A program made the position numbers and the translations under genes. The notes under the pieces are model-generated. The model did no database searches, was not told the origin of the DNA, and worked only from the letters and a program-made list of their open reading frames with translations. Below, one piece after another: positions 22,403 through 58,385 of a stretch of 64,000 nt of DNA. Source of the stretch: Aminobacter aganoensis (GTDB lineage: Bacteria > Pseudomonadota > Alphaproteobacteria > Rhizobiales > Rhizobiaceae). Within the stretch, counting starts at the first letter, position 1. Each line of letters begins with the position of its first letter. The DNA is taken from the NCBI RefSeq assembly GCF_014206975.1, contig NZ_JACHOU010000006.1:62001-126000 (forward strand), in the 5' to 3' direction.

Positions 22403-22426
22403 ATAGCGGCCGTGCCTTGTGTGAGG
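22403..22426 (-). promoter_or_regulatory. Candidate flagellar promoter element upstream of motA (diverged copy)
   Basis: On the minus strand it reads CCTCACACAAG-N10-TAT, two internal changes and one end change from the consensus CCTCGCGCAAG-N10-TAG seen before five other flagellar units. It ends 21 nt before the motA start. Confidence 0.5.
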
Positions 22427-22455
22427 CTTGAAAGACGATGCAGAAAACGATTCAG

Positions 22456-22479
22456 CCTCGCGCAAGCATTTGGGCGTAG
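22456..22479 (+). promoter_or_regulatory. Candidate flagellar promoter element upstream of the DUF1217-flgF-fliI operon
   Basis: CCTCGCGCAAG-N10-TAG with the last base 36 nt before the GTG start of the DUF1217 gene. The identical 11-mer and spacing occur at flgE and flhA, and the 36-nt distance recurs at flgE and fliF. Confidence 0.65.
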
Positions 22480-22515
22480 CCTTCCCAGTCTATCCTGCGG
22501 CGGAAGGGCGTTGTC

Positions 22516-23637
22516 GTGCTCAATACCTATACAAGCTACCAGCTGATTGCGAGGGACATCGGCAAGGCGCTCGAGCGCGTCGAGAAGCAGCCCATCATCG
22601 AGCGCGAGACCGAATATTACCTCAAGAACATCACCAAGGTGAAAACCATTGATGAGTTCGTCAAGAACGACCGCCTGTTCAAATATGCCATGAAGGCCCA
22701 CGGCCTGCAGGACATGGCCTATGCCAAGGCGTTCATGGTCAAGGCGCTCAAGGAAGGCGTCGCCGACAAGGACAGCTTCGCCAACAAGCTGACCGACAAG
22801 CGCTACGCCGAATTCGTCAAGAGCTTCAATTTCGCCGAGCTGGGCGAGCGCACCACCGTCTTCAACAAGGCCCAGCAGGGCGCCGTCGACAAATACCTGC
22901 TGCGGGTCGGGATGGACGGCGGCAACACCCAGTCGGAAGCCGTCCAGAAGGAAGTGAAGTATTACCTCGACAACATCGTCAAGGTGACGTCGGCCAAGGA
23001 CCTGATGGCCGACGCCAGGCTCTACGCATTCGCGATGAAATCCTTCGGCATCGAAGCCTCCATCCCCAACAAGGAGATGATGGAGAAGGTCCTTGCCGGC
23101 GGCGTCCGCGATCCGAAAAGCTTCGCCAACGAGATGGCGGACAAGCGCTACGCCGCTTTCGCCACCGCCTTCAACTTCGAGGCCTATGGCGCCGACGCCA
23201 CCACCATCAACCCGTCCCAGCAACCGTCCACCGACAAGTTCCTGCGCCAGACGCTGGAAGAAGACGCCGGCAAGGACAATGAAGGCGTCCGGCTGGCGCT
23301 CTATTTCGAGCGTAAGGCATCCTCCATCGGCAGCTTCTACGACGTGCTCGCCGACCCCGCGCTGGCCAAGGTCGTGCGCACCGCGCTCGGCCTGCCTGAA
23401 GCCTTTGCGTCGGCCGACATCGACCGCCAGGTCAAGCTGTTCGAGGAGAAGCTGAAGATCTCGGATTTCTCCAACCCCAAGAAGCTCGGCGATTTCCTCA
23501 AGCGCTTCACCAGCCTCTGGGAGATCAACAACCCGTCGTCGCCGGTGCAGGCTTCGGTCGGCATCCTGTTCGGCATGCCGCCAGCCTATGGCGTGTCGAC
23601 CGACCTGATGTTCGCCATGCAGAAGCTGAGGTTCTGA
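22516..23637 (+). CDS. DUF1217-family protein, flagellar-linked, three internal repeats
   Basis: The 373-residue protein is a member of the alphaproteobacterial DUF1217 family found beside flgF. Two repeats are plain: YYLKNITKVKTIDEFVKNDR...FNFAELG (about 35-115) and YYLDNIVKVTSAKDLMADAR...FNFEAYG (about 155-235). A weaker third starts near 265 (LYFERKASSIGSFYDVLADP). It is helical, with no signal peptide or membrane segment. Start is GTG with GGAAGG 8 nt upstream. It ends 7 nt before flgF in the same operon; the function is unknown. Confidence 0.88.
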   Translation: MLNTYTSYQLIARDIGKALERVEKQPIIERETEYYLKNITKVKTIDEFVKNDRLFKYAMKAHGLQDMAYAKAFMVKALKEGVADKDSFANKLTDKRYAEFVKSFNFAELGERTTVFNKAQQGAVDKYLLRVGMDGGNTQSEAVQKEVKYYLDNIVKVTSAKDLMADARLYAFAMKSFGIEASIPNKEMMEKVLAGGVRDPKSFANEMADKRYAAFATAFNFEAYGADATTINPSQQPSTDKFLRQTLEEDAGKDNEGVRLALYFERKASSIGSFYDVLADPALAKVVRTALGLPEAFASADIDRQVKLFEEKLKISDFSNPKKLGDFLKRFTSLWEINNPSSPVQASVGILFGMPPAYGVSTDLMFAMQKLRF

Positions 23638-23644
23638 GGTCACC

Positions 23645-24367
23645 ATGCAGAACAGTCTCTACGTCGCCCTCTCCGCCCAGGTCGCGCAGGAAAAGCGCCT
23701 CAACACCATCGCCGACAACGTCGCCAATGCCTCGACCGTCGGCTTTCGCGCCACCGGCGTGAAGTTCGAGGACGTCGTCTCCGGCCTCGGCTCCAAATCG
23801 GTGTCCTTTGCCTCGGCGGGCGACACCTACCTTTCGACCCAGCATGGCGGCATGCGCGAGACCGGCAACCCGTTCGATTTTGCCATTCGCGGCGACGCCT
23901 GGTTCGGCATCGACACGCCGGCCGGCACCGTCATGACCCGCGACGGCCGCTTCACCATGACCCAGGACGGCCAGTTGGTCACCGTCGAGGGTTACCCGGT
24001 ACTCGATGCCGGCGGCGCACCGATGCAGCTCGATCCGCGTGCCGGCCCGCCCACGGCCGGCGCCGACGGCTCGCTGCGCCAGGACGGCCGCCTGATCGGC
24101 GCCATCGGCCTGTTCGAATTCAACCCCGGCGCCAATTTCGTCCGCTACGGCAATTCCGGCGTCGTGCCGCCATCGACACCCGAGCCGGTGGTCGACCGCA
24201 TGGAAGCCGGCATGGTCCAGGGGTTCGTCGAGGAGTCCAACGTCAATCCGATCAAGGAGATGACCAAGCTCATCATGGTGCAGCGCGCCTTCGAAAACAC
24301 CGCCGCCCTGATCCGCCAGACCGACGCCTCGTTCTCCGACGCCATCAAGACGCTCGGTTCGAAATAA
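23645..24367 (+). CDS. flgF: Flagellar basal-body rod protein FlgF
   Basis: The 240-residue rod protein begins MQNSLYVALSAQVAQEKRLNTIADNVANASTVGFRA, the N-terminal rod motif, and ends in the matching helix (EESNVNPIKEMTKLIMVQRAFENTAALI). It makes part of the proximal rod. It is followed without a gap by fliI. Confidence 0.95.
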   Translation: MQNSLYVALSAQVAQEKRLNTIADNVANASTVGFRATGVKFEDVVSGLGSKSVSFASAGDTYLSTQHGGMRETGNPFDFAIRGDAWFGIDTPAGTVMTRDGRFTMTQDGQLVTVEGYPVLDAGGAPMQLDPRAGPPTAGADGSLRQDGRLIGAIGLFEFNPGANFVRYGNSGVVPPSTPEPVVDRMEAGMVQGFVEESNVNPIKEMTKLIMVQRAFENTAALIRQTDASFSDAIKTLGSK

Positions 24368-25768
24368 GTGAGCACGTCCCTGACCGCCATACGCACCGAG
24401 CCCGCGCTCGTGCACGACAACCGTCTGGAAGCGCTGGAGCGCATCAAGCACCGCTTCGCCGACGACCGCCTGCTGGTCAGGCGCGGCGGCAAAGTGACGG
24501 AAATCGCACCCACCCACTACAAGGTCGGCGGCCTGTCCTCCAGCGCGCGCCTCGGCGACATCGTCGAGCATCGCGGCAAGGACCGCAACCGCCGCGGCGA
24601 GATCGTCCAGATCGGCCGCGACGAGGTGCTAGTCGCGCCCTATGAAAGCAGCGGCGAGGTCGGCGTCGGCGACGCCGTCTTCACCCGCGGGCCGATCGCC
24701 ATCACCCCGCATGGCAGCTGGCGCGGCCGCGCCATCGACGCGCTCGGCCGCCCCATCGACAGCGGCGCGCCGCTGGTCCGCAGCGCCAGGCAGGGCACCG
24801 TCGAAGCCCTGCCGCCGGCAGCCCTCGCCCGCCAGCGCGTCGACACTGGCTTCATGACCGGCGTCCGCGTCATCGACATCTTCACCCCGCTCTGCTTCGG
24901 CCAGCGCATGGGCATCTTCGCCGGCTCCGGCGTCGGCAAGTCGACGCTGCTTGCCATGCTCGCCGGTGCCGACGCCTTCGACACCGTCGTCGTCGCGCTG
25001 ATCGGCGAGCGCGGCCGCGAGGTGCGTGAATTCCTCGAAGACACCATCGGCGTCGCCTCGATGGCCAAGACCGTCGCCGTCGTCGCCACCAGCGACGAGA
25101 GCGCGATGATGCGCCGCCGCGCCCCCGACACCGCCATGCGCGTCGCCGAGCATTTCCGCGACCAGGGCGACCGCGTGCTGTTGGTGCTCGATTCGATCAC
25201 CCGTTTCGCCCATGCCCTGCGCGAGGTGGCGATCGGCGCCGGCGAGCCGCCGGTCGCGCGCGGCTACCCGGCTTCCGTCTTCACCGACCTGCCCAAGCTG
25301 CTCGAACGCGCCGGTCCCGGCATGGAAGGCAAGGGCTCGATCACGGCGATCATCTCCGTCCTCGTCGACGGCGACGACCACAACGATCCGGTCGCCGATT
25401 CCGTCCGCGGCATCCTCGACGGCCACATCGTGCTCGACCGCTCGATCGCCGAGCAGGGCCGCTATCCCCCGGTCAACCCGCTGTCGTCCATCTCGCGCCT
25501 CGCCGGCAAGGCCTGGACGCCGGAGCAGCGCCAGCTCGTCGGCAAGCTCAAGGCCATGATCTCGCGCTTCGAGGACACGCGCGACATTCGCCTGCTCGGC
25601 GCCTATCAGGCCGGTGCCGACCCCGAACTCGACCTGGCCGTGCGCCAGGTTCCGGTGATCTACGAAGCGCTGGCGCAATCGCCTGCCGACGGGCCTTCGC
25701 CTGACCCGTTCTCCGACCTCGCCAGCTATCTGAGAGCCAAGGAAAGACCCCATGTTCAGGCGGAATGA
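24368..25768 (+). CDS. fliI: Flagellar export ATPase FliI
   Basis: The 466-residue F1-beta-like ATPase has a P-loop (GSGVGKST, about residue 184), a Walker B region (VLLVLDSITRFAHAL) and the conserved GYPASVFTDLPKLLERAG segment. It energises substrate delivery to the FlhA/FlhB gate. Its GTG start directly follows the flgF stop (TAA-GTG). The last 17 nt overlap the next gene in another frame. Confidence 0.96.
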   Translation: MSTSLTAIRTEPALVHDNRLEALERIKHRFADDRLLVRRGGKVTEIAPTHYKVGGLSSSARLGDIVEHRGKDRNRRGEIVQIGRDEVLVAPYESSGEVGVGDAVFTRGPIAITPHGSWRGRAIDALGRPIDSGAPLVRSARQGTVEALPPAALARQRVDTGFMTGVRVIDIFTPLCFGQRMGIFAGSGVGKSTLLAMLAGADAFDTVVVALIGERGREVREFLEDTIGVASMAKTVAVVATSDESAMMRRRAPDTAMRVAEHFRDQGDRVLLVLDSITRFAHALREVAIGAGEPPVARGYPASVFTDLPKLLERAGPGMEGKGSITAIISVLVDGDDHNDPVADSVRGILDGHIVLDRSIAEQGRYPPVNPLSSISRLAGKAWTPEQRQLVGKLKAMISRFEDTRDIRLLGAYQAGADPELDLAVRQVPVIYEALAQSPADGPSPDPFSDLASYLRAKERPHVQAE

Positions 25769-26384
25769 CCCAGCGCGCGAGCTTCTGGACATCATCGAGG
25801 CGAAGGATGACAAGCCGCGCTCGCTGTTCCAGCGCCTGCGGCCGGCCCCGAAGAGCAGGCCGCTGGCCGCCAGGCGCAACAAGCGCGACCACAGCGGCGA
25901 CTTCGTGGTCGCCTGCCTCGGCATCACGCTCGGTCTCACCTGCGCGTTGTTCCCCTGGTACATCTTCTTTAACCAGGAGAAGTTCGGCATCCGCGCCATG
26001 AAGTTCTCGGGCGGCGGCCAGAACGAGCAGCCGATCCCGCTCGCCTTGGGCCAGCAGCCCGAGCGCGTCGGCGCGCCGATGTCGGTCGAGGACATCCCGG
26101 CGATGAAGCTCGACCTCTTCGCCACCGGTTCGCTGCGCCGCGGCAAGGACGACGAGGCCGGCGTCCCCGGTGCGGTCGAACAGCCGTTCCCCGGGCCCAA
26201 GATCGACTTCACCCTTGTCCACGTCGCCAATGGCCGCGCCATGATCCAGGACAATGCCGGCCTCTGGGTCGTGCAGCAAGGTTCGGTCCTGCCGGATTCG
26301 AGCAAGGTCGCCTCGATCGAGCAGCGCAACGGCAAGTGGGTCCTGGTCACCTCGCGCGAAGAGGTTCTCCAGGTCGCGCGCTGA
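25752..26384 (+). CDS. Uncharacterised single-pass membrane protein between fliI and flgB
   Basis: The 210-residue protein has a basic N-terminal region (about 1-48), one transmembrane segment (FVVACLGITLGLTCALFPWYIFF, about 50-72) and a periplasmic tail with a globular end (about 150-210: IDFTLVHVANGRAMIQDNAGLWVVQQGS). It starts inside fliI (17-nt overlap) and precedes flgB. Position suggests a motility role special to this bacterial group. I do not recognise a named family. Confidence 0.8.
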   Translation: MFRRNDPARELLDIIEAKDDKPRSLFQRLRPAPKSRPLAARRNKRDHSGDFVVACLGITLGLTCALFPWYIFFNQEKFGIRAMKFSGGGQNEQPIPLALGQQPERVGAPMSVEDIPAMKLDLFATGSLRRGKDDEAGVPGAVEQPFPGPKIDFTLVHVANGRAMIQDNAGLWVVQQGSVLPDSSKVASIEQRNGKWVLVTSREEVLQVAR

Positions 26385-26412
26385 CGCCGGTACGCTTGCC
26401 GTACCGCGCAAG

Positions 26413-26436
26413 GCCCGCGCAAGACTGACCCAATAG
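26413..26436 (+). promoter_or_regulatory. Candidate flagellar promoter element upstream of flgB
   Basis: GCCCGCGCAAG-N10-TAG, two changes from the consensus, placed 27 nt before the flgB ATG in the 79-bp gap after the preceding gene. Confidence 0.6.
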
Positions 26437-26463
26437 TGTCTGGAAATCTGCTCGGAGATTTCC

Positions 26464-26844
26464 ATGGACCCCGTCAATCTGTTCGATCTGGCCGCCCAGC
26501 AGGCACGCTGGCTCTCGGTGCGCCAGAACGCCATCGCCGGCAACGTCGCCAACGCCAACACGCCAGGCTACCGGACCAACGAAATCGAGCCGTTCGAGCG
26601 CGTGCTCGACCGTTCCCGCGTCGCCATGACGTCGACCCAGGCGGGCCACCTCACCGGCGGCGCCACCGAAGCCGGCTTTGCGGTGAAGCCCGAAGAGCCC
26701 AGGCACGCGGTCCTGCCCTCCGACAACACTGTCGCTATGGAAGATGAATTGATGAAGGCCGGCGAGGTCCGCCGCTCCTTCGAGCTCAACACGGCCATCG
26801 TCAAGGCGTTCCACCGCATGATCATGCTGAGCAGCAAGGGCTGA
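26464..26844 (+). CDS. flgB: Flagellar basal-body rod protein FlgB
   Basis: The 126-residue protein has the rod motif [21 protein letters not shown] near residues 20-40, standard for FlgB. It starts the flgB-flgC-fliE-flgG-flgA-flgI-motE-flgH-fliL-fliP operon and its stop overlaps the flgC ATG (TGATG). Confidence 0.95.
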
Positions 26845-27269
26845 TGGGGATGGATCCGCTCGTCGCCGCCCTCAAGGTCGCCGGCTCCGGTCTCGGAGCC
26901 CAGTCCGAACGCCTCCGCATCGTCTCGGAAAACCTCGCCAACGCGCAATCGACCGGCAACACGCCCGGTGCCGAGCCCTATCGCCGCAAGACCGTCAGCT
27001 TCGCCGCCGAGCTCGACCGCGCGACCGGCGCCTCGACCGTCGAGATCGCCGCGATCGGCCACGACCAATCCGCCTTCCCGCTGGAGTTCCAGCCGGGCAA
27101 CGAGGCGGCCGACGCCAATGGCTACGTCAAGATGCCCAACGTCAACGTCATCATCGAGATGGCCGACATGACCGAGGCCAACCGTTCCTACGAAGCCAAC
27201 CTGCAAGTCATCAAGCAGGCTCGCGACCTTATTTCCATGACCATTGATCTTATGAGGAGCCAGTCATGA
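26844..27269 (+). CDS. flgC: Flagellar basal-body rod protein FlgC
   Basis: The 141-residue protein has the N-terminal rod motif ([17 protein letters not shown]) and a C-terminal helix ending [18 protein letters not shown]. The last codon region overlaps fliE by ATGA. Confidence 0.95.
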
Positions 27270-27577
27270 TCGGCAGCATCAGCCCGCTCGGCCAACAGAT
27301 CCTGAGCAAGCCGACGAGCGTCGTTCCCGAAGCTGGCGCCGCGGCCACCGCTGGCGTCGCCTCGTCTTTTGCCGCAGCCCTTTCGGATGCAGCCGCCCAG
27401 ACCGCGGCGACCCTGCGCCAGGCCGAACAGCTGTCCATCGCCGGCCTCCAGGGCAAGGCCGACACGCGTGAGGTGGTCGATGCGGTGATGAGCGCCGAAC
27501 AGTCGCTGCAGGCGGCCATCGCCATCCGCGACAAGATCGTCACGGCCTATCTCGAAGTCAGCCGCATGGGCATCTGA
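27266..27577 (+). CDS. fliE: Flagellar hook-basal body complex protein FliE
   Basis: The 103-residue product matches FliE in length, and its C-terminal half is typical ([45 protein letters not shown]). FliE joins the MS ring to the proximal rod. ATGA overlap with flgC. Confidence 0.94.
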
Positions 27578-27588
27578 GGAACATCCCG

Positions 27589-28377
27589 ATGAAAGCACTG
27601 GCCATCGCCGCAACGGGCATGAATGCCCAGCAGACCAATCTCGAGGTGATCGCGAACAACATCGCGAACATCAACACGACCGGCTACAAGCGCGCCCGCG
27701 CCGAGTTTTCCGACCTGCTCTACCAGGTCGACCGCACCCAGGGCGTGCCCAGCCGCGCCAACTCGTCGGTCGTGCCCGAAGGGGTCAGCATCGGCCTCGG
27801 CGTCAAGACGGCGGCCGTCCGCAACGTCCACATCCAGGGCGGCCTGACCAACACCGGCAACCAGTTCGACTTGGCGCTGACCGGCCGCGGCTGGTTCCAG
27901 ATCGAGGGTGCCGACGGCCAGACGCTCTACACCCGCGCCGGCTCCTTCAACACCAATGCCACCGGCCAGCTCGTCACCGTCGACGGCTATGTCGTCAGCG
28001 GCGGCATCGCCATCCCGCCCGATGCCCTCGAAGTCATCGTCAACGACGCCGGCCAGGTCTTCTCCCGTCTCGCCAACCAGACGGCGCTGCAGCTCGAGGG
28101 CCAGCTGGAACTCGCCAACTTCGCCAACGAGGCCGGACTTGCCCCGCTCGGCGACAACCTGTTTGCCGAGACCGAGGCCTCTGGCGCCGCCGTCACGGGC
28201 CAGCCCGGCACCCCCGGCTTCGCCACCATCAAGCAGGGTTACCTCGAAAACTCCAACGTCGACCCGGTCAAGGAAATCACCGAGCTGATCTCGGCGCAGC
28301 GCGCCTACGAGATGAACTCCAAGATCATCCAGGCAGCCGACGAAATGGCCGCCGTCGTCTCCAAGAACATCCGGTGA
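27589..28377 (+). CDS. flgG: Flagellar distal rod protein FlgG
   Basis: The 262-residue protein begins [40 protein letters not shown], with the rod motif, and ends with the [34 protein letters not shown] signature. It forms the distal rod inside the P and L rings. Its TGA overlaps a GTG that likely starts flgA. Confidence 0.96.
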
Positions 28378-30109: not shown

Positions 30110-30114
30110 AAGCC

Positions 30115-40417: not shown

Positions 40418-40453
40418 ATGGGCCGCGCCTCGTGCGCGGCCCATATCATTTTC
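40418..40453 (+). terminator. Terminator after flagellin 6
   Basis: ATGGGCCGCGC-CTCGT-GCGCGGCCCAT forms an 11-bp stem followed by ATCATTTT. The sequence is unrelated to the main-type flagellin terminators. Confidence 0.85.
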
Positions 40454-40473
40454 GCACAAGCTTCGAGGTCTAG
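40450..40473 (+). promoter_or_regulatory. Candidate flagellar promoter element upstream of fliF
   Basis: TTTCGCACAAG-N10-TAG, with the last base 36 nt before the fliF GTG, the same distance as at flgE and the DUF1217 gene. Confidence 0.55.
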
Positions 40474-40509
40474 GGTCTCCCCGGAAGATATTGCGGGGAA
40501 CCTACGCAC

Positions 40510-42147
40510 GTGCCCGAACAGCTACAGAGCATAGTCGCCAACTTCAGGAGCTTTGGCCCGCGCCGGCTCGCCATTTTGGGCGGCATCGCGGCGTTGGTCC
40601 TCGCCGTCGTCGGCGTGGCGTCGGTCTATCTCAACCGGCCGGCCTACGAGACGCTCTATGTCGGGCTCGAACGTTCCGACGTGAACCAGATCGGCATGGT
40701 GCTCGGCGAAGCCGGCATCGGCTTCGACGTCGCCTCCGACGGCACCACCGTCCTGGTACCTGCCGGCCAGACCGCGCAGGCGCGCATGCTGCTTGCTGAA
40801 AAGGGCCTGCCCACCAGCGCCAATGCCGGCTACGAGCTCTTCGACAATGTCGGCTCGCTCGGCCTCACCTCCTTCATGCAGCAGGTCACCCGCGTCCGTG
40901 CTCTGGAAGGCGAGATCGCCCGCACCATCCAGTCGATCACCGGCATCAAGGCCGCCCGCGTCCACATCGTCATGTCCGAGCGCGCCAATTTCCGCCGCGA
41001 CGAGCAGAAACCTTCGGCCTCCGTCGTCATCCGCGCCTCCAGCCTCGACGCAGACAAGAGCGCGATGTCGATCCGCCACCTCGTCGCCGCCGCCGTGCCC
41101 GGCCTCGACGCCGAACGCGTGACCGTGCTTGATTCGAGCGGCAACCTGCTTGCAGCGGGCGACGACCCCAACAATTCGAGTGCCGCCCGCTCCATCGGCG
41201 TCGAGCGCACCGTCGAGACCCAGATCGAGGACAACATCCGCCGCGCGCTCGCCGCCTACCTCGGACCCGACAATTTCCGCGCCAGCGTCAAGGCCGACGT
41301 CAACACCGACTCGCGCCAGACCGAAGAAACCATCTTCGATCCGGAGTCGCGCGTCGAACGCTCCGTCCAGGTCGTCCGCGCCAACGAGAACTCCAACCAG
41401 AAGCAGTCCGCCACCCCGGCCACCGTCGAGCAGAACCTGCCCGATGCCGAAGCCACCGCCACCGACGGACCGCAATCGACCTCGGCCAGCGATCGCAAGG
41501 AAGAGATCACCAACTACGAGATGAACTCGAAGCGCATCGCCACCGTCTCGAACGGCTATTCGGTGACCAAGATGTCGATCGCCGTTGTCGTCAACCAGCA
41601 GCGCCTCGCCACCATCCTCGGCAAGGACGCCACGCCGGAAGCCATCGCTGCCCGCGTCGCCGACATCCAGAAGATGGTGATCTCGGCCACCGGCTTCGAC
41701 GAAAAGCGCGGCGACCTGATCAACGTCTCGGCGGTCGAGTTCATCGACGGCCTCGACGGAGTGGAAATCGCCAGCCCCGGCGTCCTCGCTTCCGTCGGCC
41801 AGCACGCCGGCACGCTGATCAACGCAGCCGCCTTCATCGTCGTCGTCTTCCTCGTCGCCTTCTTCGGCCTGCGCCCGCTGGCGACGGCCCTGTCGAAGCC
41901 GGTCCCCGCAGCCATCGCCGGCCCCAGCTTCGACGAAGTGCAGCGGTCGCTGCCGACGCCGGATGCCGGTTCCGCCACCGCCGAGGCGCCTCCCGCGCTG
42001 CCCGGCGCGCGGCCCACCGCCATCGACGACCTGCGCAACAAGCTGCGTCCCGCCCCGCAAGATCGCCTCGCCCGCATGGTCGACATCAATGAAGAACGCA
42101 CCGCACTGATCCTGCGCAAGTGGGCTGCCCAGGAAGTCGCCGCCTGA
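40510..42147 (+). CDS. fliF: Flagellar MS-ring protein FliF
   Basis: The 545-residue protein has an N-terminal transmembrane segment (LAILGGIAALVLAVVGVASVYL), ring-building YscJ-type domains (YETLYVGLERSDVNQIGMVLGEAGIGF), a second transmembrane segment near residues 435-460 and a cytoplasmic C-terminal FliG-binding helix. GTG start at 40510. In Sinorhizobium fliF precedes visN; here it leads the fliH-like/motB/motC/fliK unit after the flagellins. TGATG overlap with the next gene. Confidence 0.96.
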   Translation: MPEQLQSIVANFRSFGPRRLAILGGIAALVLAVVGVASVYLNRPAYETLYVGLERSDVNQIGMVLGEAGIGFDVASDGTTVLVPAGQTAQARMLLAEKGLPTSANAGYELFDNVGSLGLTSFMQQVTRVRALEGEIARTIQSITGIKAARVHIVMSERANFRRDEQKPSASVVIRASSLDADKSAMSIRHLVAAAVPGLDAERVTVLDSSGNLLAAGDDPNNSSAARSIGVERTVETQIEDNIRRALAAYLGPDNFRASVKADVNTDSRQTEETIFDPESRVERSVQVVRANENSNQKQSATPATVEQNLPDAEATATDGPQSTSASDRKEEITNYEMNSKRIATVSNGYSVTKMSIAVVVNQQRLATILGKDATPEAIAARVADIQKMVISATGFDEKRGDLINVSAVEFIDGLDGVEIASPGVLASVGQHAGTLINAAAFIVVVFLVAFFGLRPLATALSKPVPAAIAGPSFDEVQRSLPTPDAGSATAEAPPALPGARPTAIDDLRNKLRPAPQDRLARMVDINEERTALILRKWAAQEVAA

Positions 42148-47494: not shown

Positions 47495-48163
47495 ATGATT
47501 GTTGTTGTCGACGAGCGCGAGCTCGTCACCAAGGGCTATAATTCACTTTTCGACAGGGAAGGCGTGGCTTGCGCGGGCTTCCGTTCGGGCGAGTTCGGCG
47601 AATGGGTCGAAAGCGCTCCCGAAGAGGATCTGCGCTCGGTGCGCGCCTTTCTCATCGGCGATTGCAACGAGGGCTCCATCTCTCCGCGCCAGCTGCGCGA
47701 CCGCTCCAAGGCGCCGGTGATCGCGCTCTCCGAGCAGAACAATCTCGAAAATACGCTCAAGCTTTTCGAATCCGGCGTCGACGACGTCATTCGCAAGCCG
47801 GTGCACATCCGCGAGATCCTGGCCCGCATCTCGGCGATCCGCCGCCGCGCGCAGGAAGACACCGGCTTCACCCAGATCGGCGCCATGCGCATCTTCATGG
47901 ACGGCCGCGATCCCGAAATCGACGGCCAGCCTATGCCGCTGCCGCGCCGTGAGCGCCGCATCCTCGAATATCTCGCAAGCAACAGCGGCCGCCGCGTCAC
48001 CAAGACCCAGGTCTTCAACGCCATCTATGGTGTCTTCGACGAAGAAGTCGAAGAAAATGTCGTCGAAAGCCACATCTCCAAGCTGCGCAAGAAACTGCGC
48101 GAGCGTCTCGGCCACGATCCGATCGATTCAAAACGCTTTCTTGGCTACCGGCTCGTCGTCTGA
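47495..48163 (+). CDS. rem: Flagellar regulator Rem (OmpR-type, orphan response regulator; FtcR in Brucella)
   Basis: The 222-residue protein has a receiver-like domain (about 1-120) with D6 and D55 in the acidic-pocket region and a winged-helix DNA-binding domain (about 125-220, [32 protein letters not shown]...[13 protein letters not shown]). No kinase gene is near. Rem links VisNR to the later flagellar genes. GGAGG precedes the ATG. It lies directly before flgE, as in other rhizobia. Confidence 0.93.
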
Positions 48164-48167
48164 CCAG

Positions 48168-48191
48168 CCTCGCGCAAGACATGTTGCGTAG
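48168..48191 (+). promoter_or_regulatory. Candidate flagellar promoter element upstream of flgE
   Basis: CCTCGCGCAAG-N10-TAG begins 5 nt after the rem stop and ends 36 nt before the flgE ATG. Confidence 0.65.
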
Positions 48192-48227
48192 TTTTGTTTC
48201 GTGGCATGAGATTTGGAGAGACCACCG

Positions 48228-49481
48228 ATGAGCCTCTATGGAATGATGCGGACTGGCGTGTCGGGGATGAACTCCCAGGCGAACCGTCTGTCGACGGTCG
48301 CTGACAACATCGCCAATTCGAGCACCACCGGCTACAAGCGGGCCTCGACCGAATTCTCGTCCCTGGTCCTGCCAAGCACGGCCGGCAGCTACAATTCCGG
48401 CGGCGTCACCACCACGGTGATCAACTCGATCAGCAAGCAGGGCGCCCTGCAGTACACCACCTCGGTCACCGACCTCGCCATCGACGGCGACGGCTTCTTC
48501 GTTGTCGAGGACGCCGGCGGCACCACCTTCCTGACCCGTGCCGGCGCCTTCGTGCCCGACAAGGATGGCTATCTCGTCAACACCGCGGGCTACAGGCTCC
48601 AGGGTTGGGATCTGAGCCAGGGGCCCCGGCCGGGCGCGCCGATCGACCCCAGCCAGATCGACGCGATCAAGATCGACGACACGACGCTCCAGTGGGCGCC
48701 GAGCGAGAACGGCACGTTCACGGCCAACCTGCCGCGCGATGCGGTCATCGTCCCGGCGGCCAACTTGCCGTCGGCCAACGCCGCCACCGCGGCCTACACC
48801 GCAAAGTCTTCGCTTGTCGCCTACAACAGCGCCGGCGGGCAGATGATCCTCGATGTCTACATGACCAAGACGGCCGCTGGCACCTGGGAAGTCGCGGTCT
48901 TCGATCAGTCGCAGGCAACGGCCGGCGGCTTCCCCTACACGGGCGGCGCGCTTTCCACCGAGACGCTCGACTTCGACGCCACCGGCAAGCTGACCGGCAC
49001 GAGCGCCACCGACATCACCTTGACCGTGCCGGGCGGCGCCTCGCTGACCATCGACTTGTCGAAGATGTCTCAGGCCGATGCCGACTACAGCGTTTCCAAG
49101 GCCGTCCTCGACGGCAGCCCGCCCAGCAAGATCGAGCGCATCGAGATCGACAAGGACGGCACCGTCTACGCCCAATATGCCAACGGCTCGATGAAGGCGC
49201 TGTTCTCCATCCCCATGGCCAACGTGCCGAGCCCCGACAAGCTGACCGTCATCTCCGGCAACGTCTTCGCCCAGGGCGCGGAATCCGGCGCCGTCACCAT
49301 CGGCTGGCCGACCGAAGGCAAGAACGGCAAGGTTGTCTCCGGCGCGGTCGAGAACTCCAACGTCGACATTGCCGAAGAACTCACCGCCATGATCGAGTCG
49401 CAGCGCAACTACACGGCCAATTCCAAGGTCTTCCAAACCGGCGCCGACCTCATGGACGTCCTCGTCAACCTGAAGAGATAG
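48228..49481 (+). CDS. flgE: Flagellar hook protein FlgE
   Basis: The 417-residue hook protein begins MSLYGMMRTGVSGMNSQANRLSTVADNIANSSTTGYKRA and ends with SNVDIAEELTAMIESQRNYTANSKVFQTGADLMDVLVNLK. ATG 48228 has GGAGAG 7 nt upstream; the ATG at 48213 lacks one. It starts the flgE-flgK-flgL-flaF-flbT-flgD-fliQ unit. Confidence 0.96.
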   Translation: MSLYGMMRTGVSGMNSQANRLSTVADNIANSSTTGYKRASTEFSSLVLPSTAGSYNSGGVTTTVINSISKQGALQYTTSVTDLAIDGDGFFVVEDAGGTTFLTRAGAFVPDKDGYLVNTAGYRLQGWDLSQGPRPGAPIDPSQIDAIKIDDTTLQWAPSENGTFTANLPRDAVIVPAANLPSANAATAAYTAKSSLVAYNSAGGQMILDVYMTKTAAGTWEVAVFDQSQATAGGFPYTGGALSTETLDFDATGKLTGTSATDITLTVPGGASLTIDLSKMSQADADYSVSKAVLDGSPPSKIERIEIDKDGTVYAQYANGSMKALFSIPMANVPSPDKLTVISGNVFAQGAESGAVTIGWPTEGKNGKVVSGAVENSNVDIAEELTAMIESQRNYTANSKVFQTGADLMDVLVNLKR

Positions 49482-49514
49482 GACTGACGGGCCCTAGCCC
49501 GCGAAAGATCCCGC

Positions 49515-50963: not shown

Positions 50964-50966
50964 GCG

Positions 50967-52019: not shown

Positions 52020-52045
52020 CCTGACCGGCAACACACGGGACGCAT

Positions 52046-52833: not shown

Positions 52834-53258
52834 TGGCCATCGACTACACCACCTCGGTGCCGGGCACCTCCAGCACCAACAAGACGGCCACCGGCACGCC
52901 GGCGCCGTCCAAGACCCAGGTCGACTACAACTCGTTCCTCAAGCTGCTCGTCGCGCAGATGAAGAACCAGGACCCGACCAAGCCGATGGACTCGACCCAG
53001 TACGTGGCGCAGCTCGCCACCTTCTCGCAGGTCGAGCAGTCGGTGCAGATGAACACCCGCCTCGACCAGATCCTGCAGGGCTCGGCGCTGGCCCAGGCCG
53101 ACGCGCTGATCGGCCGGACCGTCACCTCGCCCGACGGCAAGACCTCGGGCGTCGTCGCCGAAGTCCGCCTGTTCAAGGACGGCGTCGTCGCCGTCCTGAC
53201 CGACGGCAAGCAGGTCGTCATCAACCCCGGCGTTTCGATCAAGGCCACGCCGGCGTGA
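52833..53258 (+). CDS. flgD: Flagellar hook cap/assembly protein FlgD
   Basis: The 141-residue protein has the core FlgD segment FLKLLVAQMKNQDPTKPMDSTQYVAQLATFSQVEQ near 34-70. It is shorter than enteric FlgD, as usual in rhizobia. Its TGA overlaps the fliQ GTG. Confidence 0.94.
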   Translation: MAIDYTTSVPGTSSTNKTATGTPAPSKTQVDYNSFLKLLVAQMKNQDPTKPMDSTQYVAQLATFSQVEQSVQMNTRLDQILQGSALAQADALIGRTVTSPDGKTSGVVAEVRLFKDGVVAVLTDGKQVVINPGVSIKATPA

Positions 53259-53521
53259 ACGAGGCCGATGCCCTCGACCTCGTCCAGTTCGCCATCTGGA
53301 CGGTGCTGACTGCCTCGGCGCCCGCCGTGGCCGCGGCCATGCTGGTCGGCGTCGGCATCGCGCTCATCCAGGCGCTGACCCAGATCCAGGAAATCACCCT
53401 CACCTTCGTGCCCAAGATCGTCGCCATCTTCCTGGTCGTGGCGCTCACCGGCCCGTTCATCGGCGCCCAGATCTCCTCCTTCACCAACGTCATCTTCGAG
53501 CGCATCGAAACCGGCTTCTGA
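53255..53521 (+). CDS. fliQ: Flagellar export gate protein FliQ
   Basis: The 88-residue protein has two transmembrane segments and the FliQ signature LIQALTQIQEITLTFVPKIVAIF. Translation starts at GTG overlapping the flgD stop (GTGA). In Sinorhizobium flhA follows directly; here about 4.9 kb of unrelated genes intervene. Confidence 0.94.
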   Translation: MNEADALDLVQFAIWTVLTASAPAVAAAMLVGVGIALIQALTQIQEITLTFVPKIVAIFLVVALTGPFIGAQISSFTNVIFERIETGF

Positions 53522-53672
53522 TCACCCCGCTGGTCGTCGCCGGACTGGACCGCCCGCGAACCGGCCTTTGCCCTGCCGGCTTTCGACAATTTGGGTTCAC
53601 CCCGCTCACCGATCATGGTCTAGTCGACCGCGACGATTCACACGAGGGCATCCGGCTCGGCCGGCTTGGCGC

Positions 53673-55316
53673 ATGGACGACGACCACCAGTACGAGCGAG
53701 GTTCTGCACTCGAGCCGTTCAAGCACGGCATTTTCCGTTCCGTCTGGTTCGCCAGCCTGGCGTCGAATTTCGGCAGCCTGATCCAGTCGGTCGGTGCCGC
53801 CTGGCTGATGACCTCGATCGCCACCTCGTCCGACATGGTGGCGCTGGTCCAGGCCTCGATCACCCTGCCCATCATGCTGTTTTCGCTGGTCTCGGGCGCG
53901 CTCGCCGACAGCTTCGACCGCCGCCGCGTCATGCTCACCGCCCAGTGCTTCATGCTGGCGGTGTCGGCGCTGCTGACGCTCGTTGCCTATCTCGGCCTGA
54001 TCACGCCCTGGCTGCTGCTCGCCTTCACCTTCCTCATCGGCTGCGGCACCGCGCTCAACAACCCGTCCTGGCAGGCCTCCGTCGGCGACATGGTTCCCCG
54101 CCCGGTCATGCCGGCGGCCGTCGCGCTCAATTCGATGGGCTTCAACATGACGCGCAGCGTCGGCCCGGCCATCGGCGGCATCATCGTCGCCGCCGCCGGC
54201 GCCGCCGCCGCCTTCGCCGTCAACACGCTGAGCTACTTCGCCATCATCTTCGTGCTGTTTCGCTGGCGCCCGCACTATCCCGCCAACCCGCTGCCGCGCG
54301 AAACCCTCGGCCACGCCATGGCCGCCGGGCTGCGCTACATCGCCATGTCGCCCAACATCGGCAAGGTCCTGCTGCGCAGCTTCGCCTTCGGCTTCACCGC
54401 CGTCGTGCTGCAGGCGCTGCTGCCGCTGGTGGCGCGCGACCTCGTCGCCGGCGGCCCGCTCACCTACGGCATCATGCTCGGCGCTTTCGGCGTCGGCGCC
54501 GTCGGCGGCGCGCTGATCAGCGGCCGCATCCGCAGCAGCATGTCGAGCGAGGCGATCGTGCGCTCGGCCTTCCTCGGCTTTGCCCTGTGCAGCTGGATCG
54601 CCGCCTGGAGCTCGAACGCCTGGGTCACCAGCGCCGGCCTGCTCATCGGCGGCGCCTGCTGGGTGCTGGCGCTGTCGCACTTCAACATCACCGTGCAGAT
54701 GTCGACGCCGCGCTGGGTCGTCGGCCGCGCGCTGTCGATCTACCAGATGGCGACCTTCGGCGGCATGGCGCTCGGCAGCTGGGTCTGGGGCCTGATCGCC
54801 GAGGGCCATGGCCCGGCCACCGCCCTCATCGTCGCCGGCGTCGTCATGCTCGCCGGCGCCGCCATCGGTTTCCTGTTGCCCCTGCCCGAGCACACCGCGC
54901 TCAATCTCGACCCGCTCAACCGCTTCCGCGAGCCGCATCTGGCGCTCGACGTCCAGCCGCGCAGCGGCCCCATCGCCATCATCATCGAGTTCATCATCCG
55001 CGAGGAGGATGTGCCCGCCTTCCTCGACGCCATGGCCGAGCGCCGCCGCATCCGCCGCCGCGACGGCGCCCGCAACTGGACGCTCGCGCGCGACCTCGAA
55101 AACCCCGAAATCTGGGTCGAGAGCTACCACACCCCGACCTGGCTCGAATATGTCCGCCACAACCAGCGCGCCACCCATGCCGACGCCGAGATCGGCGAGA
55201 AGCTCAGGTCGCTGCACAGCGGCGCCCAGCCGCCGCGCGTCCACCGCCTGATCGAGCGCCCGACCAGCCTTGCCGCCGCCATCGTCACGCCCAAGGGCCC
55301 GATCGACCTGCACTGA
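53673..55316 (+). CDS. MFS exporter (EntS/MFS_3-like) with a C-terminal ABM-like domain
   Basis: The 547-residue protein has about 12 transmembrane segments (to about residue 410) with a DSFDRRRVM motif after the second helix. A soluble C-terminal part follows (about 430-545: IAIIIEFIIREEDVPAFLDAMAERRRIRRRDGARNWTLARDLENPEIWVESYHTPTWLEYVRHNQR), resembling a dimeric alpha-beta barrel (antibiotic-monooxygenase type). ATG 53673 is preferred over 53568, which would add a non-hydrophobic arginine-rich stretch. It has no link to flagella; the substrate is unknown. Confidence 0.85.
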   Translation: MDDDHQYERGSALEPFKHGIFRSVWFASLASNFGSLIQSVGAAWLMTSIATSSDMVALVQASITLPIMLFSLVSGALADSFDRRRVMLTAQCFMLAVSALLTLVAYLGLITPWLLLAFTFLIGCGTALNNPSWQASVGDMVPRPVMPAAVALNSMGFNMTRSVGPAIGGIIVAAAGAAAAFAVNTLSYFAIIFVLFRWRPHYPANPLPRETLGHAMAAGLRYIAMSPNIGKVLLRSFAFGFTAVVLQALLPLVARDLVAGGPLTYGIMLGAFGVGAVGGALISGRIRSSMSSEAIVRSAFLGFALCSWIAAWSSNAWVTSAGLLIGGACWVLALSHFNITVQMSTPRWVVGRALSIYQMATFGGMALGSWVWGLIAEGHGPATALIVAGVVMLAGAAIGFLLPLPEHTALNLDPLNRFREPHLALDVQPRSGPIAIIIEFIIREEDVPAFLDAMAERRRIRRRDGARNWTLARDLENPEIWVESYHTPTWLEYVRHNQRATHADAEIGEKLRSLHSGAQPPRVHRLIERPTSLAAAIVTPKGPIDLH

Positions 55317-55384
55317 GGCGCGGCCGGCAATCGGCAGGACACCGTTTGACCGGCTCGGCCCCGCATCATCGAGAGGAGACAAGA

Positions 55385-55834
55385 ATGGACAAGAAAACCG
55401 CCTCGAATGACGCAGACAGCGCCGCCGCCGCGTCCCGGCAGATCGATGACAAGATCGCCGCCCTCGGCGATTGGCGCGGCCAGGTGCTGGCCCGGCTCCG
55501 TGCCCTGATCCGCCAGGCCGACCCCGACATCGTCGAGGAGGTGAAGTGGCGCGGCGTTCCGGTCTGGTCGCATGACGGCATCGTCTGCACCGGCGAGACC
55601 TACAAGGCTGCCGTGAAGATGACCTTCGCCAGGGGCGCCTCGGTCGAGGACCCGAAGGGTCTCTTCAACTCGAGCCTCGAAGGCAACACCCGCCGCGCCA
55701 TCGACATCCACGAGGGCGACACCATCGACGAGGAGGCGTTGAAGACGCTCATCCGCGCCGCCGTCGCCCTCAACACCTCGGTGCTCGCCGCTCGCGCGCA
55801 GAAGCGCGCCCCGAAGCGGCCTGAGGGCGCCTGA
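55385..55834 (+). CDS. DUF1801-family protein
   Basis: The 149-residue protein has the DUF1801 pattern (LRALIRQADPDIVEEVKWRGVPVWSHDGIVCTGETYKAAVKMTFARGASVEDPKGLFN), a small YdhG-like fold of unknown function. A GAGGAG site precedes the ATG. It lies 68 nt after the MFS gene on the same strand and has a Lys/Arg-rich tail. Confidence 0.85.
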   Translation: MDKKTASNDADSAAAASRQIDDKIAALGDWRGQVLARLRALIRQADPDIVEEVKWRGVPVWSHDGIVCTGETYKAAVKMTFARGASVEDPKGLFNSSLEGNTRRAIDIHEGDTIDEEALKTLIRAAVALNTSVLAARAQKRAPKRPEGA

Positions 55835-56002
55835 GCGGCCTCCTGGTCCGTGACCGGCGCCGGGTCGGCGCGATGGGCCTGGGTCGCGAATTGGGCATCC
55901 GCGCTACGCTTGCCGCTTCCGCAATCCATCGGTTGTGGCACCGGCTGCCAGGGCATAGGACGGCAGGCAACAAGTCAGGGAATCGTTTTTCCGGAATACC
56001 CC

Positions 56003-56491
56003 ATGATCGAGATAAGACATGCCGTGCATGATGAAGTTCATGTGCTGGCCCGGGTCGGTTTGGCCGCATGGTGCAAGGGCATACAACCGCTCGTGCCTTC
56101 GGCGACGTCGGACAAAATCGAGAAAGACAACCCGTTCGTCCCGTTCCTCGAAGACATGGGGGCGCGGGTGCTGGTCGCGGTCATCGATGATCGGGCCGCC
56201 GGCATCGCCGCCTGCGAACACTCCGACGACTACATCAGCGATGTCTGGGTCGCGCCCGAGTTCGAGGGACGCGGCGTTGCGTCCGCGTTGATCGGAGCAC
56301 TCGAACGGGAAATCTCGGGACGAGGCTTTTCGAAGGCTCGAATTCACGTAGCCGCCGCCAACACGCGCGCGCTTGGACTGTACGAGCATCTTGGCTACAT
56401 CGAGGTCTCGCGCGAAACGGCCTTCGACCCCATCTTGGAAATCTCGCTCGACAAGATCGGCCTGGAAAAGCACCTGTCGGCCCAACGATAA
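56003..56491 (+). CDS. GNAT-family N-acetyltransferase
   Basis: The 162-residue protein has the acetyl-CoA motif (ISDVWVAPEFEGRGVASALIGALE, about 73-97, with the R-G-V-A turn) and the late NTRALGLYEHLGYIE segment. This is the RimI-like GNAT fold. The substrate is unknown. ATG 56003 is chosen because MIEIRHAV is a normal GNAT start; the upstream open frame from 55850 is not convincing. Confidence 0.87.
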   Translation: MIEIRHAVHDEVHVLARVGLAAWCKGIQPLVPSATSDKIEKDNPFVPFLEDMGARVLVAVIDDRAAGIAACEHSDDYISDVWVAPEFEGRGVASALIGALEREISGRGFSKARIHVAAANTRALGLYEHLGYIEVSRETAFDPILEISLDKIGLEKHLSAQR

Positions 56492-56572
56492 TTTCGAGTG
56501 TCTCTCCGCACGATCCAGTCGAGAACACCCGGTTCCCGCTTTAGTGCGCATGATCCGACCAGGAGCCGCCTG

Positions 56573-57055
56573 CTATGGCAGCCGCGCCGTCCGCGCTGTC
56601 ACTTCGGCGCTCACCTGCCGCAAGACCTCGGTGGTTCTGAGGATGTCCGCTTCGCCAAGGGCGCCGCCCATGGTCGAGGCGATCGCCAGGAGTTGGGCGT
56701 CCATCTCGCGATAGCGCGCAGCGCCCTGCGGTGTCAGTTGCACGAGCTTCGAACGCCGGTGCTTCGGATTGTCGGCGAACTCCACCAACCCCTCGGCTGC
56801 AAGCTCGTCCGCCAGCCTCTGCATGCGCTGGCGGCTCGTCGGCCGCATCTGCGCGATCTGCGGCACCGTCAGCGGACCGAGCACCGCCAGGCTTCGCATG
56901 AAGCCGAACGCGCCGCCGCCCCAGCTGGTGATCAGCCCGGTCTTCTGGCCGATCGCCCTTATCCTGAAGAAGCACTGCGCCACTTCGAGCATCAGCTCGG
57001 CAATCGCCTCCGCCTTGCTGCCGGCAACTGCACCCGTTCCCGTCTCAGCCGCCAT
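56573..57055 (-). CDS. MarR-family transcriptional regulator
   Basis: The 160-residue protein has a winged helix (LGPLTVPQIAQMRPTSRQRMQRLADELAAEGLVEFADNPKHRRSKLVQLTPQG, about 60-113). It is divergent from a methyltransferase-like gene, and two matching 19-bp palindromes lie between them. Auto-repression and control of the divergent gene are likely. Confidence 0.9.
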   Translation of the reverse strand: MAAETGTGAVAGSKAEAIAELMLEVAQCFFRIRAIGQKTGLITSWGGGAFGFMRSLAVLGPLTVPQIAQMRPTSRQRMQRLADELAAEGLVEFADNPKHRRSKLVQLTPQGAARYREMDAQLLAIASTMGGALGEADILRTTEVLRQVSAEVTARTARLP

Positions 57056-57107
57056 CCCGGTCCCCTGTCCTGCTGACCTTCACCGTTACCTGCACAGCCT
57101 CCGTTAT

Positions 57108-57126
57108 TGACACCAAGGTTGTCAAT
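57108..57126. promoter_or_regulatory. MarR operator candidate 1
   Basis: TTGACACCAAGGTTGTCAA, a 19-bp palindrome with TTGACA/TGTCAA arms and a CCAAGG centre, 53 bp from the MarR start. Confidence 0.6.
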
Positions 57127-57134
57127 TTATAGAA

Positions 57135-57153
57135 TGACACCTTGGTTGTCATT
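57135..57153. promoter_or_regulatory. MarR operator candidate 2
   Basis: ATGACACCTTGGTTGTCAT, the same palindrome type as site 1, with centres 27 bp apart. It would be overlapped by a start at 57142, which supports the downstream start of the next gene. Confidence 0.6.
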
Positions 57154-57192
57154 CGCATTGAATTTCGCCCTTCAGCATCTGCGGGAGCATTC

Positions 57193-57687
57193 ATGCGTCA
57201 CCCACCTGCACAACAGCCCGACCACGGCACGGCGGGCGTCATTGCCCGGCCGCCCATTCTCTTTCTTGGCACGCTCGTGCTTGGTCTGGTCGCCGACCGG
57301 CTGCTGCCCTTGGCGTTCGTCGTCCCGGCGAGCGGTCCGATCCTCACGCTGGTCGCCGGCGGCCTGGTCCTTGCCGGCATTGCGCTGGTCGCCGCGGGCA
57401 TCCGCAACTTCTCCCGGGCCGCCACGCCGGTGCCGACGAACGAGCCAACCCGCGCGCTCGTCACCTCGGGCATTCACGGCTGGACGCGCAACCCGATCTA
57501 TCTCGGCATGTTTCTGTTCTATGGCGGCATCGGCATCGCCGCGCAGAGCACATGGGTCCTTGTCCTCGTCCTGCCTCTTGCGATCGTCGTCCGCTACGGC
57601 GTCGTTGCCCGCGAGGAGGCTTACCTCGAGCGGCGCTTCGGCGATGCCTACCTCGACTACAGGCGACGCGTGCGGCGATGGCTGTGA
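57193..57687 (+). CDS. Isoprenylcysteine/phospholipid methyltransferase-family membrane protein
   Basis: The 164-residue protein has three to four transmembrane segments and the ICMT/PEMT signature GIHGWTRNPIYLGMFLFYGG near 95-115, plus a late EEAYLERRFGDAYLDYRRRV block that binds S-adenosylmethionine. ATG 57193 has GGGAG 5 nt upstream; ATG 57142 lies inside the second operator. It is divergent from marR and probably controlled by it. The substrate is unknown. Confidence 0.87.
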   Translation: MRHPPAQQPDHGTAGVIARPPILFLGTLVLGLVADRLLPLAFVVPASGPILTLVAGGLVLAGIALVAAGIRNFSRAATPVPTNEPTRALVTSGIHGWTRNPIYLGMFLFYGGIGIAAQSTWVLVLVLPLAIVVRYGVVAREEAYLERRFGDAYLDYRRRVRRWL

Positions 57688-58182
57688 GCCGGCAGACTTC
57701 GTCCTTGAGGGGATAGTCTTTCCACATCGAGATGGCTGCGGGTTCCGTCCGTCGGGCTGCTCGGCCACGGCACGGCAACCGCTGCCGCCCGATGCCGGCA
57801 AAGCCGTGTCACCATTCTGTCAGCAATCCGCGTGGATAGCCGGCCGTGTTTTTCCACGCCCTGAAAACCTCCCATACAATCCATGCCAGTTTCTCCCGCG
57901 GGAACGCCGGTCGCGACGGTGGCATGCGGGGAGGAACCGGCGCCTCCGGCAATGGGCCAACGTAGCCTGTTGCCCGGGGAGGTTCCGTCCAAGGGTTCCC
58001 CTTCGGGTATTACGGCCCGGGCGCGCTGGACGATGCGCTAGTGGGGCAAGGGCGAAAATGCCCGTGCCCCGGAAGCGGAACGGACGGGAACAGAAATCGC
58101 CGGCGGGGCGCGGACGTCGCGCCACATAAAATACTATCGGAAGGCACGGCCTTGCGCCCCGCTTCCCGGTTTCCCTCATCCT

Positions 58183-58278
58183 GAGCTTGTCGAAGGATGA
58201 GCTTGTCGAAGGATGAGCTTGTCGAAGGATGAGCTTGTCGAAGGATGAGCTTGTCGAAGGATGAGCTTGTCGAGGGAT
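58183..58278. repeat. Six tandem copies of a 16-bp repeat
   Basis: GAGCTTGTCGAAGGAT is repeated six times without spacers; the sixth copy has one A-to-G change. CTTCGACAAGCTC-type sequences are common dispersed elements in proteobacteria, but a head-to-tail array is unusual. It lies 84 bp before the flhA promoter element. Confidence 0.9.
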
Positions 58279-58361
58279 GACAATGGCCAGGCGCGAAAGC
58301 GAGCGTGGCGGTGAAAAGGCTTGGCATCCGCCAACGCAGGCCGTGCGTCCCCTCCTCCCAC

Positions 58362-58385
58362 CCTCGCGCAAGCTTGAAGCAATAG
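58362..58385 (+). promoter_or_regulatory. Candidate flagellar promoter element upstream of flhA
   Basis: CCTCGCGCAAG-N10-TAG, identical in the 11-mer to those at flgE and DUF1217, 49 nt before the flhA ATG. It would let flhA be expressed independently of the interrupted fliQ operon. Confidence 0.65.

Follow-up and report, generated by a model that had tools for sequence, protein, structure and literature searches.

Six flagellar transcription units of Aminobacter aganoensis are each preceded by a copy of a conserved 38-nucleotide (nt) element, and comparative sequence analysis makes it very probable that these copies are binding sites of the response regulator Rem combined with core promoters, by which Rem would switch on the class II flagellar operons. 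The elements lie in a stretch of 64,000 nt (contig NZ_JACHOU010000006.1, positions 62,001 to 126,000; C6:62001-126000 in the 5.76-Mb genome), hereafter called the window, which also contains the rem gene. A preliminary description of this DNA had noticed a 24-nt sequence, that is, an 11-mer followed by 10 nt and TAG, at these six places, and had attributed it to a Rem-dependent promoter class. The six sequences proved correct in coordinates, letters and constant 10-nt spacer, as did the identity of the 11-mer at DUF1217, flgE and flhA: the exact string CCTCGCGCAAG-N10-TA occurs at three places in the genome, which are exactly these. The 24-mer is part of a longer arrangement, in which a degenerate half site comes first and the 11-mer follows, with the -10 hexamer TAGNNT placed 10 nt farther on. 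The 11-base-pair (bp) upstream half, the T in the sixth place of the hexamer and a division into two subtypes go beyond what had been described.

The evidence that the element is more than a chance resemblance comes from a genome-wide ranking. A 27-nt matrix was refined from the six window sites over 21 syntenic clusters (the window and clusters from 20 genomes of its family, the Rhizobiaceae, with flagellar genes placed by tblastn) and yielded 106 sites, 15 of which were kept out of the final profile, namely the six of the window, six from the same genus, two at flagellin genes and one below 17 bits. The other 91 sites, from 19 family genomes, align without gaps over 41 columns and were made into a model based on sequence alone, whose independence concerns the rows of the final model and not the choice of the motif, since the matrix had been seeded with the window sites. 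In the search of the whole genome with this out-of-genus profile (150 of 1805 first-look candidates being scored), the six elements took ranks 1 to 6, with expectation (E) values of 5.2e-4, 5.4e-4, 0.002, 0.003, 0.005 and 0.022, and the seventh match had an E value of 0.45. As the E-values of the tool are rough, it is the gap between 0.022 and 0.45, and not the E value as such, that carries the argument. All six leading sites (6/6) stand at class II flagellar operons. Frequent occurrence of the pattern away from motility genes had been named beforehand as the finding that would speak against the proposal; in this genome no such match is better than E 0.45. Two of the lower matches, C1:18951 (E 0.45), by phosphorylase-like and helicase-like open reading frames (ORFs), and C3:283623 (E 0.92), between M20 peptidase-like and lyase-like ORFs, were judged to be due to chance; the 3-kb locus around each has no flagellar match, and the genes beside them were named from ORF reading.

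Counting of pattern matches was of more limited use. Within the window, 13 matches with at most three mismatches were found against 10.1 +/- 2.96 expected, and 18 of 100 shuffles reached 13. This enrichment is not significant, so the count was dropped as evidence, and the weaker variants, those of motA and fliF, are not to be trusted on the basis of counting alone. Across the genome, two mismatches gave 216 matches against 143 for the reversed pattern. A pattern in IUPAC ambiguity codes matched five places without mismatch, four of them flagellar, and with one mismatch it was uninformative (41 matches against 54 for its reverse). The profile searches of the family and order genomes described below also scored part of the first-look candidates (at most 107 per family genome and 43 at order level) and employed stricter filters that lose weak sites, so that their genome counts are lower bounds.

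The alignment reveals a precise anatomy. CAAG, at positions 7-10 of the 11-mer, is invariant across the family sites, and TA at a spacing of 10 is nearly so. When sites were picked by the 11-mer score alone, TA stood exactly 10 nt past the 11-mer in 102 of 103 cases, with TA scattered elsewhere, a test that is partly circular because the 11-mer matrix came from sites chosen with their -10. The T at hexamer position 6 is present in 73% of the family sites and in 75 of the 103 picked by the 11-mer score. The earlier assignment of the TAG to a -10 element is thus supported both by the spacing and by this T; in the window the hexamer is TAGNNT at five of six sites, the motA element differing (TATCTG). 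In addition, a second [AC]AG lies exactly 11 bp upstream of that of the core in 69/69 family sites at motA, flgB, flgE and DUF1217 (subtype A), in a flank outside the matrix. The AG is found likewise, exactly 11 bp above the core's AG, at 76/76 flgE sites of the named loci, a set of 80 kept as the best among 545 relatives; Mesorhizobium, Aminobacter, Nitratireductor and their kin make up most of it, and some members overlap with the training genomes. An offset of -11 gives the highest peak after the site itself (z score 5.1; next 3.0). Comparison of the two halves gives 9 identical bases out of 11 at flgB and 3 to 7 at the other five window promoters. Subtype A can be described as a direct repeat of 11-bp units, the first of them degenerate, that ends 10 bp ahead of the -10. 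By inspection of the 41 columns, nothing like TTGAC is found across the half-site junction, where a -35 hexamer would fall. Of the two roles previously offered for the 11-mer, activator site or -35 element, the former is therefore the better reading, with the 11-mer as the half site nearer to the -10.

Since Rem is of the OmpR type, has a published role in flagellar transcription and would find here the geometry of a pho box, the element may be regarded as an activator-dependent promoter of class II. Each of the two 11-bp half sites would be occupied by one Rem DNA-binding domain, in head-to-tail orientation; with a transcription start 7 nt past the -10 hexamer, the pair would cover about -44 to -23. 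Bound in this way, Rem would replace the -35 element and recruit the housekeeping RNA polymerase, presumably with sigma-70, which would be placed on the TAGNNT exactly 10 nt downstream, as with PhoB at pho boxes. In a set of 104 family sites, the -10 and the start codon come as close as 7 nt and no closer, as expected for such a start. Rem has been reported to activate class II genes including fliM (PMC8429497, PMC9812332), a gene that in the window lies in the motA unit. It is further described as lacking the phospho-accepting aspartate, as active without phosphorylation and as directly responsible for class II transcription (PMC9812332), and rem mutants are reported to be non-flagellated (PMC8429497, PMC9812332).

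The distribution of the element follows that of Rem. The Rem of the window, whose sequence is 100% identical to the Aminobacter niigataensis protein, combines a receiver with a winged helix of the OmpR type and, as a profile, retrieves OmpR/PhoB-type regulators among solved structures. Orthologues were found in 32 of 150 genomes of the order Rhizobiales (E <= 1e-30) and in 51 of 61 family genomes (E <= 1e-60). Counting as site-bearing a genome with three or more profile matches at E <= 0.1, the order comprises 24/32 site-bearing genomes with Rem (19/27 outside the family) against 2/118 without Rem, and 1/83 of those without Rem that have FlhA (Fisher p 7e-17 for 24/32 against 1/83, with genomes treated as independent). 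In the family, the corresponding figures are 43/51 with Rem (24/32 outside the 19 training genomes) and 0/10 without. FlhA itself falls into two groups: a protein at least 58% identical to that of the window occurs in 28 of the 32 genomes with Rem and in none without it, and all others are at most 48% identical. The four genomes with Rem and no FlhA of the window type comprise G116, which has a 45% match only, and G017, G068 and G073, in which no match reached E <= 1e-60. The two groups are reminiscent of the lateral and subpolar flagellar systems described in the literature (as reported in PMC6406911). Four genomes (G035, G143, G119 and G149) possess Rem together with two full FlhA types, G023 being excluded as its second FlhA is a fragment. 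In these four, all 10 matches at E <= 0.05 lie within 31 kb of Rem, and four weaker ones (E 0.066-0.094) lie elsewhere, none at another flhA. Such a contrast within one cell weakens the worry that the association reflects mere phylogeny or GC content. Profile ranking, co-occurrence and two-system genomes together argue for the Rem-dependent promoter class put forward in the preliminary description.

Several observations weigh against the assignment to Rem. A clear upstream half is absent at fliF and flhA: AG is retained at 1/35 family sites and 1/106 sites of the named loci, and is replaced mostly by CAT or CAC. Fewer than three matches are found in 8/32 order-level and 8/51 family genomes with Rem. 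Conversely, two genomes without Rem, G112 and G113, have five and three matches, respectively, which are weak (best E 0.007 and 0.021), and at least one match at E <= 0.1 occurs in 39/118 genomes without Rem, so that single matches mean little. Another genome without Rem, G049, has two good matches (E 3.5e-4 and 0.006) ahead of genes that resemble those of tricarboxylate transport or catabolism, and therefore the half site is not exclusive to Rem. Eleven order genomes without Rem, including these three, were searched again at E <= 1e-15 and gave distant OmpR relatives only, with best E values between 6e-21 and 7e-18 and at most 36% identity. Finally, the motif reported from chromatin immunoprecipitation and sequencing (ChIP-seq) of FtcR, a Rem homologue, TGTGGGCA, differs from the element (PMC9456535). 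It is not clearly enriched near the elements either, being present at 13 of the 106 sites in a 140-nt stretch with one mismatch, where about 8 are expected. As for the G049 sites themselves (L175 1510(+) and L281), one adjoins a TctD-like OmpR regulator and a kinase, as read from the ORFs, hinting that related OmpR regulators might read similar tandem CAAG half sites.

The fliF and flhA elements form a second conserved subtype (B), with CTTCG directly after the 11-mer. They retain the A at -2 in 83% of 35 family sites and carry TT at positions 12-13 in 34/35 family and 106/106 named sites. The split is nearly complete, the combination of TT with no AG occurring in 34/35 fliF/flhA sites against 0/69 others in the family, and in 105/106 fliF/flhA sites against 0/76 flgE sites in the named loci; by gene, fliF is of subtype B in 69/69 and flhA in 36/37, and flgE of subtype A in 76/76. 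Both fliF, for the MS ring, and flhA, for the export gate, specify parts that are among the first to be built, and the split could encode the order of assembly. That is, subtype B, with no upstream AG, CTTCG after CAAG and perhaps an inverted or shifted second half, would serve these early parts, and the tandem subtype A would serve the rod, hook, stator/switch and ATPase operons, so that the level of Rem or its cofactors might activate the two sets at different moments or to different degrees. This use of two promoter architectures by Rem is a tentative idea, which we consider rather unlikely.

Four other explanations were weighed. The element might be read by an alternative sigma factor, for which the 11-mer would serve as -35 and the TAG as -10 with no need for an activator, and such a factor could indeed recognise a fixed spacing and a strict CAAG/TA pair. 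However, the spacers of the sigma-70 family measure 16-19 nt, far above the 10 nt observed, and the [AC]AG found 11 bp upstream in 69/69 sites would have no role. The sigma-54 consensus GG-N10-GC is absent from the 41-column alignment by inspection, and no FliA (TIGR02479) is above cut-off in the genome, where four proteins remain below the threshold (best 106.4 of 189.6 bits). The presence of the element, moreover, tracks Rem, and altogether a sigma factor is a very improbable answer. That the six sites were picked by eye in a GC-rich genome and are similar by chance agrees with the ordinary count at three mismatches, but is refuted by the out-of-genus profile, which ranks the six first, and by the conservation of the same promoters in relatives; this is the least probable of the four, to a degree that makes it negligible.

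Two further regulators come into question in place of Rem. VisNR could bind the element directly, with Rem merely travelling along, and a LuxR-type frame does lie near flhB in the window; sites of LuxR-type proteins are inverted repeats, though, and the element is a direct repeat. VisNR stands above Rem in the known cascade, as reported, but the same source describes Bradyrhizobium diazoefficiens and Azorhizobium caulinodans as having a rem homologue and no visNR (PMC8429497), and the genomes with two flagellar systems, two of them apparently Bradyrhizobium-like, carry the element; direct binding by VisNR appears even less probable than a sigma factor. Lower again we place the proposal that some other OmpR-family regulator, gained and lost together with this flagellar system, binds the element. 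The TctD-like regulator beside a similar tandem site in G049 would be in its favour, but in the four two-system genomes, which allow a comparison inside a single cell, the element accompanies the Rem cluster, and both the non-flagellated rem mutants and the direct drive of class II genes by Rem, as reported (PMC8429497, PMC9812332), point to Rem itself.

The predicted Rem promoters are conserved at the same genes in relatives. Among the 21 syntenic clusters, sites were found at motA in 21, flgB in 21, flhA in 20, flgE in 20, fliF in 15 and DUF1217 in 7, with 10 further sites of at least 12 bits in the motA-flgF gap of family clusters where the DUF1217 start could not be placed. At 15 bits or more, 1.26 Mb of family loci contain 142 matches against 1 for the reversed-matrix control; 1.56 Mb of loci contain 200 against 5. 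Out of 133 family-loci matches of at least 15 bits, 105 lie within 150 nt before a located flagellar start and 28 elsewhere, including 9 inside flhB, 8 in the motA-flgF gap and some ahead of fliK or motB. The window has such a match of 15.9 bits inside flhB (18049, minus strand), which recurs inside flhB in several relatives; the matches internal to flhB probably reflect coding conservation. In the named loci that hold the 5' end of the gene, elements of at least 15 bits precede flgE in 77/78, fliF in 69/70 and flhA in 37/41, the misses being L274 for all three genes and L275, L276 and L277 for flhA. Beyond the family, a score of at least 5 bits was obtained at 22 of 25 target starts, in a sample where part of the loci had been fetched for holding the motif; in loci chosen by Rem alone the figure is 10/13, with misses at flgE and flhA in L137 and at fliF in L146. 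Internal flagellar starts reach 5 bits in 1/73 cases, the exception being flgF opposite motA. The element is accordingly recognisable and drifting outside the family. In L137, from the Rem-bearing genome G022, GGCAAG occurs twice, 11 bp apart, upstream of flgE with a poor matrix score, and is possibly a diverged tandem.

In some relatives the element also stands ahead of flagellin genes (L123 2186(-), L103 3990(-), L162 1511(+) and L167 1512(+)), 98-120 nt from the start codon, farther than is usual elsewhere; such a long leader would suit translational control. With the family-cluster matrix and the genome profile, no match as strong as these was found at the flagellin genes of the window. 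In none of the 21 clusters does an element occur in the 150 nt preceding rem, which speaks against autoregulation of Rem through it.

The six elements and the genes next to them are listed in Table 1. A distance of 36 nt to the start codon, counted from the end of the element as first delimited, holds at DUF1217 (GTG 22516), flgE (ATG 48228) and fliF (GTG 40510). It does not hold as a general rule: flhA has 49 nt, flgB 27 and motA 21, and the stretch that separates the end of the -10 hexamer from the start codon measures 7-137 nt in 104 family sites (median 26), so that a fixed leader is rejected. The motA and DUF1217 elements (22400-22482) point away from each other, their upstream halves separated by 7 bp. 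The 5' ends of their cores are 22-55 nt apart in 16 of the 17 clusters that have both and 566 nt apart in one, and given this variation no fixed geometry of the pair is needed.

Table 1. Predicted Rem-dependent promoter elements and neighbouring genes, in window coordinates.
Feature	Position	Strand	Composition or support	Subtype	Genome rank
motA element (unit motA-fliM ... fliG-flhB)	22400..22437	-	upstream half CGTCTTTCAAG, core CCTCACACAAG, 10-nt spacer, -10 TATCTG	A	1
DUF1217-flgF-fliI element	22445..22482	+	upstream half AAACGATTCAG, core CCTCGCGCAAG, -10 TAGCCT	A	6
flgB element	26402..26439	+	upstream half TACCGCGCAAG, core GCCCGCGCAAG, -10 TAGTGT	A	4
fliF element	40439..40476	+	upstream GCCCATATCAT, core TTTCGCACAAG, spacer starts CTTCG, -10 TAGGGT	B	2
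flgE element	48157..48194	+	upstream half CGTCTGACCAG, core CCTCGCGCAAG, -10 TAGTTT	A	3
flhA-fliR element	58351..58388	+	upstream CCTCCTCCCAC, core CCTCGCGCAAG, spacer starts CTTGA, -10 TAGGGT	B	5
motA	21488..22381	-	first gene of minus-strand unit; TIGR03818 above cut-off		
DUF1217 protein gene	22516..23637	+	first gene ahead of flgF-fliI; PF06748		
flgB	26464..26844	+	NF004653 above cut-off		
fliF (MS ring)	40510..42147	+	PF01514 and PF08345		
rem (OmpR/PhoB-type response regulator, proposed activator)	47495..48163	+	Pfam Response_reg and Trans_reg_C		
flgE (hook)	48228..49481	+	Pfam hook domains; start taken as ATG 48228		
flhA (export gate)	58435..60525	+	PF00771		

Family models back the names motA, flgF, fliI, flgB, flgI, flgH, fliP, flgE, flgK, flgL, flgD, flhA, fliR, fliF, motB and fliK, the OmpR-type regulator (rem), and also flhB, fliG, a fliM-like gene, DUF1217 and flaF; a motC-like gene is below cut-off. 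Near flhB, the C-terminal part of a frame at 15856-17463 (+) matches a LuxR-type Pfam model above its cut-off and an autoinducer-binding one at a score under the cut-off, making it a candidate visR/visN region. A 722-residue frame with a DUF1801 domain (53666-55834, +) occupies part of the 5.6 kb that separate flgD from flhA in the window; in many relatives the two genes are closer.

Rem is the accepted activator of class II flagellar genes in rhizobia and their relatives, and a 38-nt element that picks six class II operons genome-wide would make its regulon predictable in Rem-bearing genomes. It suggests which targets are direct, the flagellin and chemotaxis genes having no match below E 0.45 in this genome, and names the exact bases to mutate; the reported FtcR ChIP motif deserves a second look, and the fliF/flhA subtype raises an assembly-order idea that can be tested. 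In the open-licence literature, a scope that leaves the primary Rem papers outside, neither the element nor a Rem binding consensus was found, and the available portions of papers on ActR (PMC8639532) and on start sites in agrobacteria (PMC10469942) and Sinorhizobium meliloti (PMC3616915) contain no such element.

Among known systems, the element shares with the Rem/FtcR/LafR regulons of Rhizobiales a regulator gene located in the cluster and class II operons as targets. Like the CtrA flagellar promoters of other Alphaproteobacteria, it would place an OmpR-type regulator at flagellar promoters, and the best NCBIfam model for Rem is indeed a CtrA, far under its cut-off (86 of 350 bits); unlike them, it shows by inspection of the alignment no TTAA-N7-TTAA, the CtrA consensus. 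The closest geometry is that of the pho box, which stands just before the -10 and replaces the -35. The pho box is described as two 11-nt direct repeat units on which an OmpR/PhoB-type regulator binds head to tail and contacts the sigma subunit of the polymerase (PMC4415409), and subtype A likewise consists of two 11-bp direct half sites. The differences concern the half site, CNTCNNNCAAG in place of CTGTCAT, the degenerate upstream half, the fliF/flhA form with no clear upstream half, and the regulator, Rem being reported as aspartate-less and phosphorylation-independent unlike PhoB/PhoP (PMC9812332). In this last respect Rem resembles ChxR and HP1043, OmpR/PhoB regulators reported to lack the phospho-accepting aspartate and to act independently of phosphorylation, ChxR on direct and HP1043 on inverted repeats, for which the source, as far as available, states no flagellar role (PMC3960148). 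In conclusion, tandem sites of OmpR/PhoB regulators are a kind already known, and the predicted Rem element would represent a newly described member of it.

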